A stretch of 10,898 bases of DNA from positions 1-10,898 of the forward strand of contig DFHC01000029.1 of assembly GCA_002372575.1 (NCBI GenBank), in the 5' to 3' direction. Under the pieces are notes generated by a model that did not search any database, was not told the DNA's origin, and worked only from the letters and a program-made list of their open reading frames with translations. Positions 3,017-9,000 of the stretch are shown here, one piece after another (positions within the stretch are counted from its first letter, which is position 1; every line of letters starts with the position of its first letter). Position numbers and translations under genes: made by a program. The stretch is from a bacterium UBA3734. GTDB taxonomy: Bacteria > Bacteroidota > Bacteroidia > Bacteroidales > Bacteroidaceae.

Positions 3017-3080
3017 GGAGTGTGGAGTGTGAAGTGTGGAGTGAAAATTGTCAAATCGTAAAATAGTCAAATAGTAAATT
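3012..3080 (+). repeat. Composite tandem array: 7-bp units then 8-bp units
   Basis: Five heptamers run from 3013 to 3047: GTGAGGA, GTGTGGA, GTGTGAA, GTGTGGA, GTGAAAA. Overlapping their end, four octamers run from 3044 to 3075 with the pattern (A/C)AAAT(A/T/C)GT, followed by AAATT directly before an ATG at 3081. The array begins inside the last codons of ptpA and contributes its TGA stop, yet the PtpA C-terminus has normal length, so nothing is truncated. It fills most of the leader between ptpA and purD. Degenerate short tandem repeats of this type are common between genes in Bacteroidales. Their function is unknown to me, and I see no clear promoter in this array. Confidence 0.8.
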
Positions 3081-3170
3081 ATGGGAATTCGTCACGTACA
3101 GATGCCTTTTTTCCCCGAAAATGAGCTGGAAAAGACGGCGTTTTATCCTTCGGTGGAGCTGAAAAAAAGT

Positions 3171-4469
3171 ATGAAAATCCTGCTCTTGGGCAGTGGCGGT
3201 CGTGAGCACGCGCTGGCGTGGAAAATCGCGCAGAGCAAGAAGTGCGAAAAGCTGTTCATCGCTCCCGGAAACGCTGGCACGAGTGGGGTGGGAGAGAATG
3301 CTCCCATCGGTGTGAGCGATTTTGAGTCGCTGAAGAATTTTTCGGTTGAAAACGGCATCGATATGGTGGTCGTAGGCCCGGAAGACCCGCTCGTGAACGG
3401 CATCTACGACGATTTCCGCAGCGACCAGCGCACGTGTCACATTCCCGTCATCGGACCGTCGAAAGCCGGAGCGCAACTCGAAGGCTCAAAAGACTTCGCC
3501 AAGGCCTTTATGCAGCGTCACCATATTCCCACGGCGCGCTACCAGACCTTCGACGCAGCGCATCTGGCCGAGGGAATCGCGTTTTTGGAGACGTTGCAGC
3601 CGCCCTACGTGCTCAAGGCCGACGGACTTTGCGCCGGAAAGGGCGTTCTCATCGTGCCGACGCTCGACGAGGCGAAACGCGAGCTCCGCGAAATGCTCGG
3701 AGGGATGTTTGGCAACGCATCGGCTCGCGTCGTCATCGAGGAATTTCTCAGCGGCATCGAATGTTCCGTTTTCGTGCTCACCGACGGCGAACATTACCAA
3801 ATTCTGCCCGAAGCGAAGGACTACAAGCGCATCGGCGAGGGCGACACAGGACTGAACACTGGCGGAATGGGCAGCGTTTCGCCCGTTCCATTTGCCACGA
3901 AGGAATGGATGGAAAAGGTCGAAAATCGCATCATCCGACCGACCGTCGAGGGACTTCGCGCCGAGGGAATCGACTACAAAGGTTTTATTTTCTTCGGCCT
4001 CATCAACGTCGAGGGCGAACCGATGGTCATCGAATATAATTGTCGAATGGGCGACCCCGAAACCGAAACCGTGATGTTGCGCCTGAAAAGTGACATCATC
4101 GACCTGTTTTTGGGTGTTGCCGCAGGGAATCTCGACCAAAAACACATCGAATTCGACGAACGCGCCGCCGTGTGCGTGATGCTCGTCAGCGGTGGCTATC
4201 CCGAAGCCTACAAAAAAGGCTATCCGATTAGTTTTCCATCGCTATCATCCCCCCATTTGGGGGGAACGAGGGGGGCTTCCAACACCATCATTTTCCACGC
4301 AGGAACAGCTCTGAAAGACGGCGAAGTGGTCACCAACGGCGGTCGCGTCATTGCCGTTTCTTCTTACGGAAAAGACAAGGCCGAAGCACTCGCGAAATCG
4401 TTTGAAGTGGCGCAAAAAATCGACTTTACCGACAAGTATTTCCGACGCGATATCGGGAAAGATCTTTGA
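3171..4469 (+). CDS. purD: Phosphoribosylamine-glycine ligase (GAR synthetase)
   Basis: PurD joins 5-phosphoribosylamine and glycine using ATP, the second step of cytoplasmic de novo purine synthesis. From the ATG at 3171 the protein has 432 residues and begins [19 protein letters not shown], the canonical PurD N-terminus, which is why I chose this start. An in-frame ATG at 3081 would add 30 residues. The ATP-grasp core includes [13 protein letters not shown] around Lys149, then [12 protein letters not shown], and the metal-binding [11 protein letters not shown] with Glu288 and Asn290. The C-terminal domain carries [19 protein letters not shown]. The odd feature is at residues 358-371 ([14 protein letters not shown]), between KGYPIS and IIFHAGT, where a palindromic GC-rich repeat is read through in frame. 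The site lies outside the ATP-grasp catalytic residues, and all core motifs are intact, so the enzyme is probably functional. An A-rich stretch precedes 3171, with a GGAG at 3155-3158 that is rather far for a ribosome binding site. Confidence 0.95.
4244..4283 (+). repeat. Palindromic GC-rich repeat read through inside purD
   Basis: Six C (4249-4254), the loop ATTT, and six G (4259-4264) form a perfect hairpin, followed by AACGAGGGGGGC. The reverse complement aligns with the element at 4470-4510: both read as a pyrimidine-rich CCCC(T/C) block, a short spacer, CCCCAAAT and then a G-run ending in GGA or GGAGGA. The two copies therefore lie in opposite orientation about 230 bp apart. In purD the element encodes residues 358-371 without shifting the frame. 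Confidence 0.75.
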
Positions 4470-4510
4470 GCAGTCCCCTCCCGGCCTCCCCAAATAGGGG
4501 AGGAGAAAAT
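4470..4510 (+). repeat. Palindromic GC-rich repeat after purD
   Basis: It begins one base after the purD stop. CCTCCCC at 4485-4491 pairs perfectly with GGGGAGG at 4497-4503 around the loop AAATA, and a CCCCTCCC block lies upstream at 4475-4482. It is a diverged inverted relative of the element inside purD. A stem this strong could stall or protect transcripts. It lacks a following T-run on the plus strand, so I do not call it an intrinsic terminator. Confidence 0.7.
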
Positions 4511-6061: not shown

Positions 6062-9000
6062 TTACTCTTCCAGCACCCCGAACTCGGCTCCGGTGGCGAA
6101 GTCCTGCCCATCTTGTGAGGAGAGGGCGGTGAAGCGGAGGTAGCGGGCTTGCTGCGGCTTGTCGAAGAGGACGCGCTTTTCCTTGCTCCCCTTCTCAAAC
6201 TGGCCTTCGCAAACGGGTTCGCTCCACGTTTTGCCGTCGTTCGAGAGCTGCACGCGATACTGCTTGATGTGGCCGTTCTTCGAGTCTTGGCGCGGCAGAT
6301 ACGTGAAGCCCTTGATGCGTTTCGAGGTGCCGCAGTCGAAGTCGAGCCAGTGCGGATAGTTCGCCACGGTGACGCTCCACATCGTGTGCCAATAGGTGTT
6401 GGGATTGCCATCGACGAGGTGCTGGGCGTCGCCCTCGCCGCTCTCCACGCTGCTGGCGAAGCTCACGGTGACGGGGATGCGGTCGATTTTCTCAAACGTC
6501 TTCCTGTAAACGGGTTCCGAAGCGGGGAAGTTGCCTTTTTCGTCGATTTTCCGGCAGGCAATCATCGTGCCGCCCTCGCGCAGGCTGAACGGGCCGACGT
6601 AGCGCAGCGTTTTCGCCTCTTTGATTTGCTTTTCCGTGGCGTTTTCGGGCACGATTTTGTAGTAGAATTCTTGGTATCTCGACGGTGTGCTACGAACCAT
6701 TCCTTCGCTGTCGCGGATGATTTGCAGCGGGGCAGGACCGCTGAAGTTCACGCGATAGTCGCTGGGCGTGGGCTGGCGGTTGCTGAGCGGACGAATCATG
6801 AAATAGAACTGGTGCGGGCCGGCCTTCACGCGGTCGTTTTCGAGTGGTCCGCCCTGTCCGCAGGAGTTTCCGCCGAGTCCGGTGATGGCGAGGTCGAGGT
6901 GCAGGTGATTGCCCGACGACGTGGGCAATTCGTGCGGATGGTTGGCCATGGCGAGTTCTTGCGCCGACCACGGCAGCACGCTCACCGACATTGCCGACCA
7001 CGGCTGTGACCACTCCGACCCGGGCGAACTGCCAATGAACAGGGCTCCTGCGCCGCTCTCGTCGGTGAGCGAGCACCAGCGCGTGTCCTGATGGTTGCCC
7101 ATGTCTTGCGGCTTCGGGAAATTCAGGAATTCGTCGGCCACTTTCCCCGCGTAGATGCCGATATTCTGCGACGTTTTGCGGTCGGGGTAGTTGTCGATGG
7201 GACCGCGTCCGTAGTAGCGGAAATGGTCCATCGTCGTGGGCAGTTTCATCGCATAGCCGAGTCGCGGCAGAATGAGCTGCGGATTGTTGGAGTCGATGGC
7301 GGCTTTCACCTCGATGCTGCCGTCGGGATAGACGGTGTAGATGACGTTTTGCGTGAATTTGAAATCGTCTTTGCCGAAGGGTTTGTCGGTGAATTCCGTG
7401 AGGCGTTTCCAGTTGCGGTCGCCGCCTTCGAGCTTGGCTCCGCAGGGTGCCTGCGACTCGATTTCAAACGAAATGCTGACGGTTCCGTCGCTGTTTTCGC
7501 TGACGATGGGCTGTCCGACGGCCTTGTGGCGGAGGTTGTGAAGCCCGTTGGCATACCAGTTCTGATAGGCCCAGTTGTCGTTGTTCACCCATGCGCGGAA
7601 GGCGTCGAGGCGCGGGCCGCAGCCGTCTTCAAACACTTTCTTGCCGCCGTAGCTCAGACTGTGGATGCTGCCGTCGGTTTTCGAGAAAACGACAGTCCCA
7701 CCTCCGACCGCTCCCGACGGGAGGGAAGTAGTTAGTTTTATAGAATTGCCTTCGTCGGAGATAGTGATTTTTCCCTCCTTTTTAATGGCGAAACTGGCAC
7801 TTCCAGCCCTCATCATCAGCTGCTCCTCGGCCTGCACGAAGCCTGCCTTTGCCCAGGGCATATCGTGTTTCAGTCGGAACTCGAAATTCACGAAATATTC
7901 GCGTCCGTCGCTCGTGTCGAAGTTCTTCAGTTCGGGCGTTTCGATGTATTTGAAGGTGCGCGGCGTCACGCTACCCACGTCAATCAGGCCTTCCTTCACC
8001 ACCTCGCCGTCGGCCAGAATCGAGTAGTGGCAATCGTAGTTCGTGAGGCTGTCGGTGTAGTAGTGCTTGTTGAGCACGTTGATGCCTTCGTGACACGCGC
8101 AGTCCCACTTCACGGTGATGTTCTGATAGACCTTTTTCACCTCGAAATACTGCGGTTTGGGCTGCATGTCGCCGAAAACGATGCCGTTCATCACGAACTG
8201 GCCGTCGTTGGGCATGTCGCCGAAGTCGCCGCCGTAGGCTAAGTATTTGTTGGGTGTTGGGTGCTGGGTGTTGGGTGATGAGTGTTGGGTGTTGGGTGAT
8301 GTGTAGTTATACAGGCTTTGGTCGATCCAGTCCCAGATGGCACCGCCCATGATGAAGTTCGACGACTCGATGGCATCCCAATAGTCTTTCAGGTTGCCCA
8401 CGGCGTTGCCCATCGAATGGGCATATTCCGAGATGTGGAAGGGATACTTGATGTTCATCTTGCCTTTCACGGCCTCGCGCACCCAGTTCACACTCGGATA
8501 TTGGTTTGAGCCGAGGTCGACAAAACGGAATTCCGTGTCGCGCTCGTATTGCACGGGGCGCGTCGTGTCGAAGGCTTTCACGGCCTCGTAGGCTGCCACG
8601 AAATTCTCGCCAGGGCCGGCCTCGTTACCGAGGCTCCAGATGACAATCGACGGGTCGTTCACGCGCGCGCGAACCATTTCCATATTTCTGGCCACGTGGG
8701 CGGCACGCCACTCGGTGGGGTGGGAGAGCGACGCCTCGCCGTAGTAGTATTCGTGGCTCTCGATGTTGGCCTCGGCTTCGAGATAGATGCCGAATTTGTT
8801 GCAAAGATAGAAAAAATACGGGTCGTTGGGGTAGTGTGCGGTGCGCACGTGGTTGATGTTTCCGCGCTTCATCATCATCACCTCTTCGAGCATCTGTTCG
8901 CGCGTGACGGCGTGGCCTCGCTCGGGATTCGTCTCGTGGCGGTTCACGCCCTTCAGCTTCAGGGGGCGGCCATTGATGTAGAAATAGCGTCCGGCCAGCC

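Follow-up and report, generated by a model that had tools for sequence, protein, structure and literature searches.

The purD locus

The window, that is, the whole stretch of 10,898 nucleotides analysed here, is contig 17 of a draft genome of 1.88 Mb in 187 contigs, which is 58.5% complete, with Prevotella and Prevotellaceae as its closest named relatives. Its forward strand carries purD (3081..4469), the gene for phosphoribosylamine-glycine ligase. Translation starts either at 3081, which gives a frame of 462 aa, or at 3171 (MKILLLGS). As the first-pass annotation had stated for its ATP-grasp motifs, the protein has kept its domains: the N, ATP-grasp and C domains all match Pfam (GARS_N, GARS_A, GARS_C), and its PDB relatives are 1gso, 3mjf and 9 more. 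An AlphaFold model of PurD, with a mean pLDDT of 50.6, was set aside.

A palindromic element lies inside the gene at 4248..4278 on the forward strand. It is composed of TCCCCCC (Y1, 4248-4254), an ATTT loop (4255-4258), GGGGGGA (R1, 4259-4265), an ACGA linker (4266-4269) and a mirror arm, GGGGGG (R2, 4270-4275), followed by CTT. The perfect hairpin reported in the first-pass annotation is thus borne out, with a 7-bp stem formed by TCCCCCC and GGGGGGA. The element is translated in frame between KGYPI and TIIFHAGT; the residue numbers given for it earlier, 358-371, fit a start at 3171 and become approximately 388-401 in the frame from 3081. The diverged inverted copy said to lie directly after purD is also present, past the stop codon at 4472..4505 on the reverse strand (Y2 4475-4482; hairpin 4485-4503). 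It is inverted relative to the purD element, and family scans recover it.

Two other repeats were seen in the window. An array of GTGTGGAGTGTGAAGTGTGGAGTG occupies the intergenic positions 3019-3050 directly before purD and resembles a peptide, RSVECGVKSED, in the PurD loop of a relative (P0027). In lacZ (GH2), heptamer-type repeats (SPNTQHSSPNTQHPTPN) run in frame at 8248-8303, another intergenic-type repeat within a gene.

The PurD loop among homologues

Most PurD homologues have only a short loop at this position, as the first-pass annotation had stated. A plain span of 29 residues from GGYP to FHxGT occurs in 74 of 80 loci fetched from GTDB, counting four (L231, L237, L238, L239) that fell outside our script's motif and were scored plain by eye. 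The same span is found in 27 of 30 same-genus loci, which are the best-scoring ones among 140 genomes with a match and include the window's own, and in 34 of 40 further same-genus loci picked because their PurD length deviated. The solved chains 1gso and 3mjf are 8 residues shorter at the position of the insert. Since most of these loci lack the segment, it is not the common property of PurD homologues that ordinary protein sequence would be.

The loci that depart from the plain span are L170 (a longer loop, 36), L178, L181, L188, L219 and L235 in the GTDB set, in which L224 is plain; the window itself, L023 and L029 among the 30; and L241, L243, L244, L245, L273 and L277 among the 40. In L023 the loop holds an oppositely oriented hairpin element of a different subtype, and L029 has the same in degenerate form. 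L188 and L235 carry other hairpins at this loop, and L181 a heptamer array, to which a peptide in L245 corresponds. When the 120 best PurD homologues were classed by eye from their proteins alone, without DNA, 19 had the window-type loop, 3 a heptamer-like one and 3 another of SSPQSG type. Heptamer peptides or arrays similar to those of lacZ sit at this PurD position in other lineages (P0017, P0019, P0022, L181). Other loops of the protein, near query residues 73, 209, 312 and 411, have repeat-like inserts in relatives (L240, L241, L227, L242, L246, L023).

A dispersed hairpin family

We carried out the genome-wide palindrome search that the first-pass annotation had proposed on 120 contigs, each covered over no more than its first 20 kb (1,112,896 bp in all). 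Perfect C/T-rich 6-bp hairpins occur at 66 places (130 over both strands), compared to 9 over both strands in one mononucleotide-shuffled sequence and a single hairpin of the reverse G..C type. When the second arm was required, under slightly different rules, 73 elements were found; one shuffle yielded 0 and the reversed sequence 1. A chance palindrome is ruled out by these counts. The purD segment is almost certainly an insert of this dispersed repeat: it is a copy of a family spread through the genome and is absent from most homologues, which upholds the earlier claim that an intergenic-type element had entered purD. That it is instead an ordinary lineage-specific protein loop, palindromic by chance, might be argued from its retention in the closest homologues (the 19 of 120 above), but this reading is refuted by the existence of the repeat family and deserves practically no credence, given also that other lineages have unrelated repeats at this loop and that a near-identical copy adjoins a DUF559 gene elsewhere (L308, below).

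Many copies lie in genes. Of the 73 elements, 49 fall within an open frame that spans them, across 35 ORFs. By hand tally, 28 of these ORFs have Pfam matches and together hold 42 elements, and in 23 of the 28 a match spans an element or there are matches to either side of one; the remaining 7 ORFs, with one element each, gave no Pfam match. By Pfam domain the hosts include MnmA, FolC, SerS, RNase HII, RsgA, Lon, MutS (2 elements), a MiaB-type radical SAM protein, MurB, an ABC-F-type ATPase, ApbE and a UvrD helicase, and the CCA tRNA nucleotidyltransferase holds 3 elements. Divergent pairs about 50 bp apart are a frequent arrangement. In one WbqC-like ORF (L116:1077-1799), the match covers only profile positions 3-123 of 218 and is followed by an element pair; this gene, whose 2 elements are in the Pfam tally, was possibly broken by the pair. 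One rare subtype, present in 8 of 150 genomes, reaches 29 copies in a single relative and no more than 4 in each of the others, a pattern that fits lineage-specific bursts.

Anatomy of the element

Read outward, the elements are ordered as Y1, loop, R1, 2-4 nt, R2 and usually GGCT, which is found near 96 of 148 hairpins. R2 is a mirror of R1 rather than a direct repeat: across the 148 hairpins the mean match is 0.913 for the mirror and 0.770 for the direct reading, and the mirror is exact in 70 hairpins and the direct repeat in 5. None of 2000 permutations reached this mean, although the elements are related to one another and hence are dependent events. Several arm subtypes preserve the mirror relation; in some of them R2 has T in place of A. 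Because R2 mirrors R1, a switch between Y1-R1 and Y1-R2 pairing is disfavoured; the Y1-R1-R2 geometry, with R2 as a third strand, would suit a purine triplex or a G-quadruplex. In the source genome's own elements, T follows GG..C in 55 of the 64 (out of 71) that can be aligned there. A GTAG tag, counted on either strand, is near 30 of the 148 hairpins, which is about chance by arithmetic, and CGTC, the end typical of Rickettsia palindromic elements (RPEs), is near 12, again on either strand.

Elements contain few stops, 0.69 each compared to 1.79 in random genome windows. We considered six-frame openness as an evolved design and rejected it because the purine/pyrimidine layout alone suffices: shuffles that keep this pattern do equally well (0.62).

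Hairpins flank DUF559 nuclease genes

Two DUF559 domains were found in the source genome, one in PriA and one in the CCA enzyme. Both are in frame and flanked by elements, and both belong to DUF559 (PF04480) with 118 and 104 bits against a curated cut-off of 20.6. In the CCA enzyme (L154), the whole domain sits between two elements. In PriA, query positions 362 to 513 are roughly 150 extra residues, at a point where the solved chain 8fak_H, which we take to be E. coli PriA, is continuous (350/351). At E 1e-5, Pfam gave no protein-splicing domain in the CCA, PriA or AAA helicase hosts.

DUF559 matches, some of them weak, occur in 87 of 150 same-genus genomes and in 109 of 198 genomes across the phylum. 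We collected 80 loci: the 31 best-scoring in the genus, the 29 best-scoring in the phylum and 20 further ones, 13 of which were chosen for long open frames. A hairpin lies within 260 bp of DUF559 in 27 of 31 genus loci (both sides in 25; L288, cut by a contig end, still included), in 24 of 26 phylum loci (both sides in 17; the likewise cut L329 and L336 still included) and in 14 of the 20 further loci (both sides in 10). After dropping all six loci cut by contig ends (L288, L321, L325, L329, L336, L338), the pooled count is 63 of 74, with hairpins on both sides in 52; the other 11 have no hairpin by the rule used. Hairpin density is 3.74/kb near DUF559 (144 in 38.5 kb) and 0.25/kb in the rest of the loci (50 in 200 kb). 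The left and right ends of the units are inverted copies of each other, with a similarity of 0.897 compared to a permutation maximum of 0.779 (52 pairs).

The arrangement extends beyond the phylum. Hairpins accompany 7 of 8 plasmid-borne DUF559 loci from Cyanobacteriota, Deinococcota and Alphaproteobacteria (both sides in 5) and occur nowhere else in those stretches; these 8 were taken from the 40 matches listed, of 56 records. On a Sphingomonas plasmid, a hairpin-DUF559-hairpin unit (L373:1424-1876) lies between genes for transhydrogenase subunits; in two Deinococcus plasmids (L371, L375) such a unit is found at different points of an hpa gene cluster.

The best match to the purD element comes from L308, at a distance of 54 bp from a DUF559 gene: it shares the arms, the linker and the second arm with the purD element and differs in the loop. 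L308 shows a hairpin on one side only. Subtypes vary; the hairpin core of another genome, G039, occurs there just twice, on the two flanks of DUF559. The purD element and the DUF559 flanks are very probably members of one family.

In-frame DUF559 domains in other genomes

DUF559 is also found in frame in other hosts. It occupies the same place in an AAA helicase in L302 and L355 and the same loop of LeuRS in different Bacteroidota families (L313, L316, L353), and it is hosted by MetH (L333, L339), by an NAD-dependent epimerase/dehydratase (L350, L354) and by DegT-type aminotransferases (L351, L358, L359). N-terminal fusions join it to an ArgB-like amino-acid kinase (L306, L360), IspF/YgbB (L310), a SpoU methylase (L289) and a guanylate-kinase-like protein (L349). 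Hosts were called by Pfam for L302, L306, L310 and L289, by NCBIfam, in part below its cut-offs, for L353, L355, L350 and L351, and otherwise by eye from the peptide. In a FastTree phylogeny of DUF559 (one run, 68 of the 80 loci, no support values), the Prevotella LeuRS copy L353 stands apart from L313 and L316, a hint that the LeuRS copies may be separate insertions.

Such recurrence of the unit at one site, in LeuRS, MetH and the epimerase, is what might be seen if in-frame copies were selected, with the hairpin or the loop serving the host gene. The hosts are functionally unrelated, however, and the PurD site conserves neither loop sequence nor the kind of repeat, and we regard a selected function as very unlikely.

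Element number follows DUF559 more closely than Y1 transposase

We searched genomes of the genus with a covariance model of 62 elements and counted the best ~44 matches per genome. Among the matches listed, the median is 35.5 elements in 86 relatives with DUF559 and 1.0 in 63 relatives without it (Mann-Whitney p=1.7e-15, Spearman 0.71; the genomes are related and the tests are therefore not independent). At least 20 elements occur in 62 of the 86 and in 10 of the 63. Of these 10 element-rich genomes without DUF559, 8 have a completeness of no more than 81%, and the other two, G032 and G098, reach 97% and 99%. Four genomes have a strong DUF559 hit yet fewer than 5 elements (G012, G031, G036, G099).

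These counts bear on a further possibility, namely that the palindromes are REPs moved in trans by a RAYT-type Y1 tyrosine transposase, with DUF559 riding along as a passenger or often being hit by REP insertion. Paired REP hairpins and intragenic REPs are known with RAYTs, as PMC3733652 describes, and Y1_Tnp is present in 87 of 150 genus genomes. Among the matches listed, and for related genomes, the median rises from 8 elements to 22 with any Y1 hit (p=0.03), and from 29 to 38 within the genomes that have DUF559. Yet this difference shrinks to 17 versus 13.5 (p=0.31; again related genomes and matches listed) for Y1 hits of about E 1e-10 or better, and in genomes without DUF559 the median among the matches listed is 1 with Y1 and 1 without. 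The source genome, at 58.5% completeness, gave no Y1_Tnp match, and the hairpins are accompanied by GGCT, not by GTAG above chance. From the DUF559 split set against the weak Y1 differences, DUF559 is a far stronger predictor of element number than Y1; the case for the transposase is weakened, though Y1 may have a lesser role, and we consider a RAYT origin improbable.

Somewhat less improbable, though still unlikely, is that G/C-rich hairpins are intrinsically recombinogenic and spread by replication slippage, template switching or repair, a captured DUF559 helping its own copies only. Simple repeats have also entered the PurD loop (the L181 array; peptides P0017, P0019 and P0022) and the lacZ of the window, and loops therefore acquire DNA by several routes. 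Such an origin is harder to reconcile with the tight, paired and inverted flanking of DUF559 in four phyla and with the steep dependence of element number on DUF559.

A putative hairpin-ended mobile element

The reading we prefer, with a probability of roughly 70%, is that the segment in purD represents a REP- or MITE-like solo end of a putative hairpin-ended DUF559 mobile element. The full unit would consist of a DUF559 endonuclease gene between two hairpin ends, each end running from a C/T-rich arm through a small loop to a G-rich arm, followed by a linker of 2-4 nt and a mirroring second G-rich arm. Full units, paired ends and single ends would be spread over the genome, both between and within genes, with solo and paired ends as non-autonomous copies. 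Judging by association and position, DUF559 is probably the mobiliser: the nuclease may recognise the hairpin ends and cut or nick DNA, and during repair the ends could be copied or joined at a new site. Copies within genes would survive if the frame is kept and the position is a loop or linker, and the host protein would then gain a short Pro/Gly/Ser-rich loop where an end is translated, or an extra domain where the whole nuclease is. The in-frame positions could be due to purifying selection and not to targeting. We know of no joining activity of DUF559. A Vsr-like protein has reportedly been studied in Caulobacter in a DNA-methylation setting (PMC12907096); DUF559 may therefore do other things as well.

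It is tempting to go further, and here we see the odds as even: this may be a pan-bacterial mobile element that lacks a transposase. Its sole protein would be a DUF559 restriction-fold nuclease recognising C-rich/G-rich hairpin ends with a mirror-symmetric third strand, and it would spread itself and tens of empty ends per genome, also in frame in essential enzymes, without splicing.

Compared to the first-pass annotation, the analysis adds copies in dozens of genes, other repeats in the same PurD loop, and the probable identity of the family as the ends of DUF559 elements. If the preferred reading holds, it provides a candidate role for a widespread nuclease family whose function is unknown, and the C/G-rich palindromes found throughout these genomes would have a candidate driver. 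Mobile DNA would have supplied essential enzymes (PurD, PriA, LeuRS, MutS, Lon, MiaB) with loops or an entire nuclease domain, and the tolerance of proteins for selfish DNA becomes directly testable.

Comparison with known systems

DUF559 / NF007294 proteins and PDB 3hrl contain the same domain as the units described here and are named merely DUF559 or endonuclease-like protein. In the open literature searched, fourteen papers mention DUF559, in each case outside title and abstract, and no link of DUF559 to palindromic or hairpin repeats appeared in the titles and abstract openings listed.

Homing endonucleases with a Vsr-like (EDxHD) fold exist. The DUF559 units resemble homing endonucleases and inteins in that a nuclease is inserted in frame into essential genes at a site shared between them. 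Unlike these, they have hairpin ends, occupy many unlinked sites and match no splicing domain in the CCA, PriA and AAA helicase hosts.

Intragenic copies of Rickettsia palindromic elements and of GTAG/CGTC REPs are described in PMC3733652, and an in-frame palindrome as such is therefore of a known kind. Like RPEs, which that paper places in frame in genes that are likely still functional, 42 of our 73 elements lie in 28 Pfam-supported, putatively functional ORFs. RPEs have another sequence and anatomy and, according to PMC3733652, end in CGTC; the passages on them there link them to no nuclease gene, unlike the elements here.

GTAG/CGTC REP elements and REPtrons (RAYT) share with our elements the short hairpins, the paired inverted copies, dispersal and some intragenic positions. 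The second mirror arm sets ours apart, as does GGCT near most ends with no excess of GTAG or CGTC. In a REPtron, Y1_Tnp is linked to the repeats; here that link is weak, with no match in the incomplete source genome and an element number that depends weakly or not at all on Y1, and DUF559 stands in the place of the RAYT.

Bacterial MITEs, finally, are likewise small and non-autonomous, have inverted ends and are related to a fuller unit that bears a gene, and the inverted ends seen here are common to the gene-bearing relative (the 52 pairs above, 0.897 vs 0.779). Unlike in MITEs, the gene in this fuller relative encodes a restriction-fold nuclease, not a transposase.
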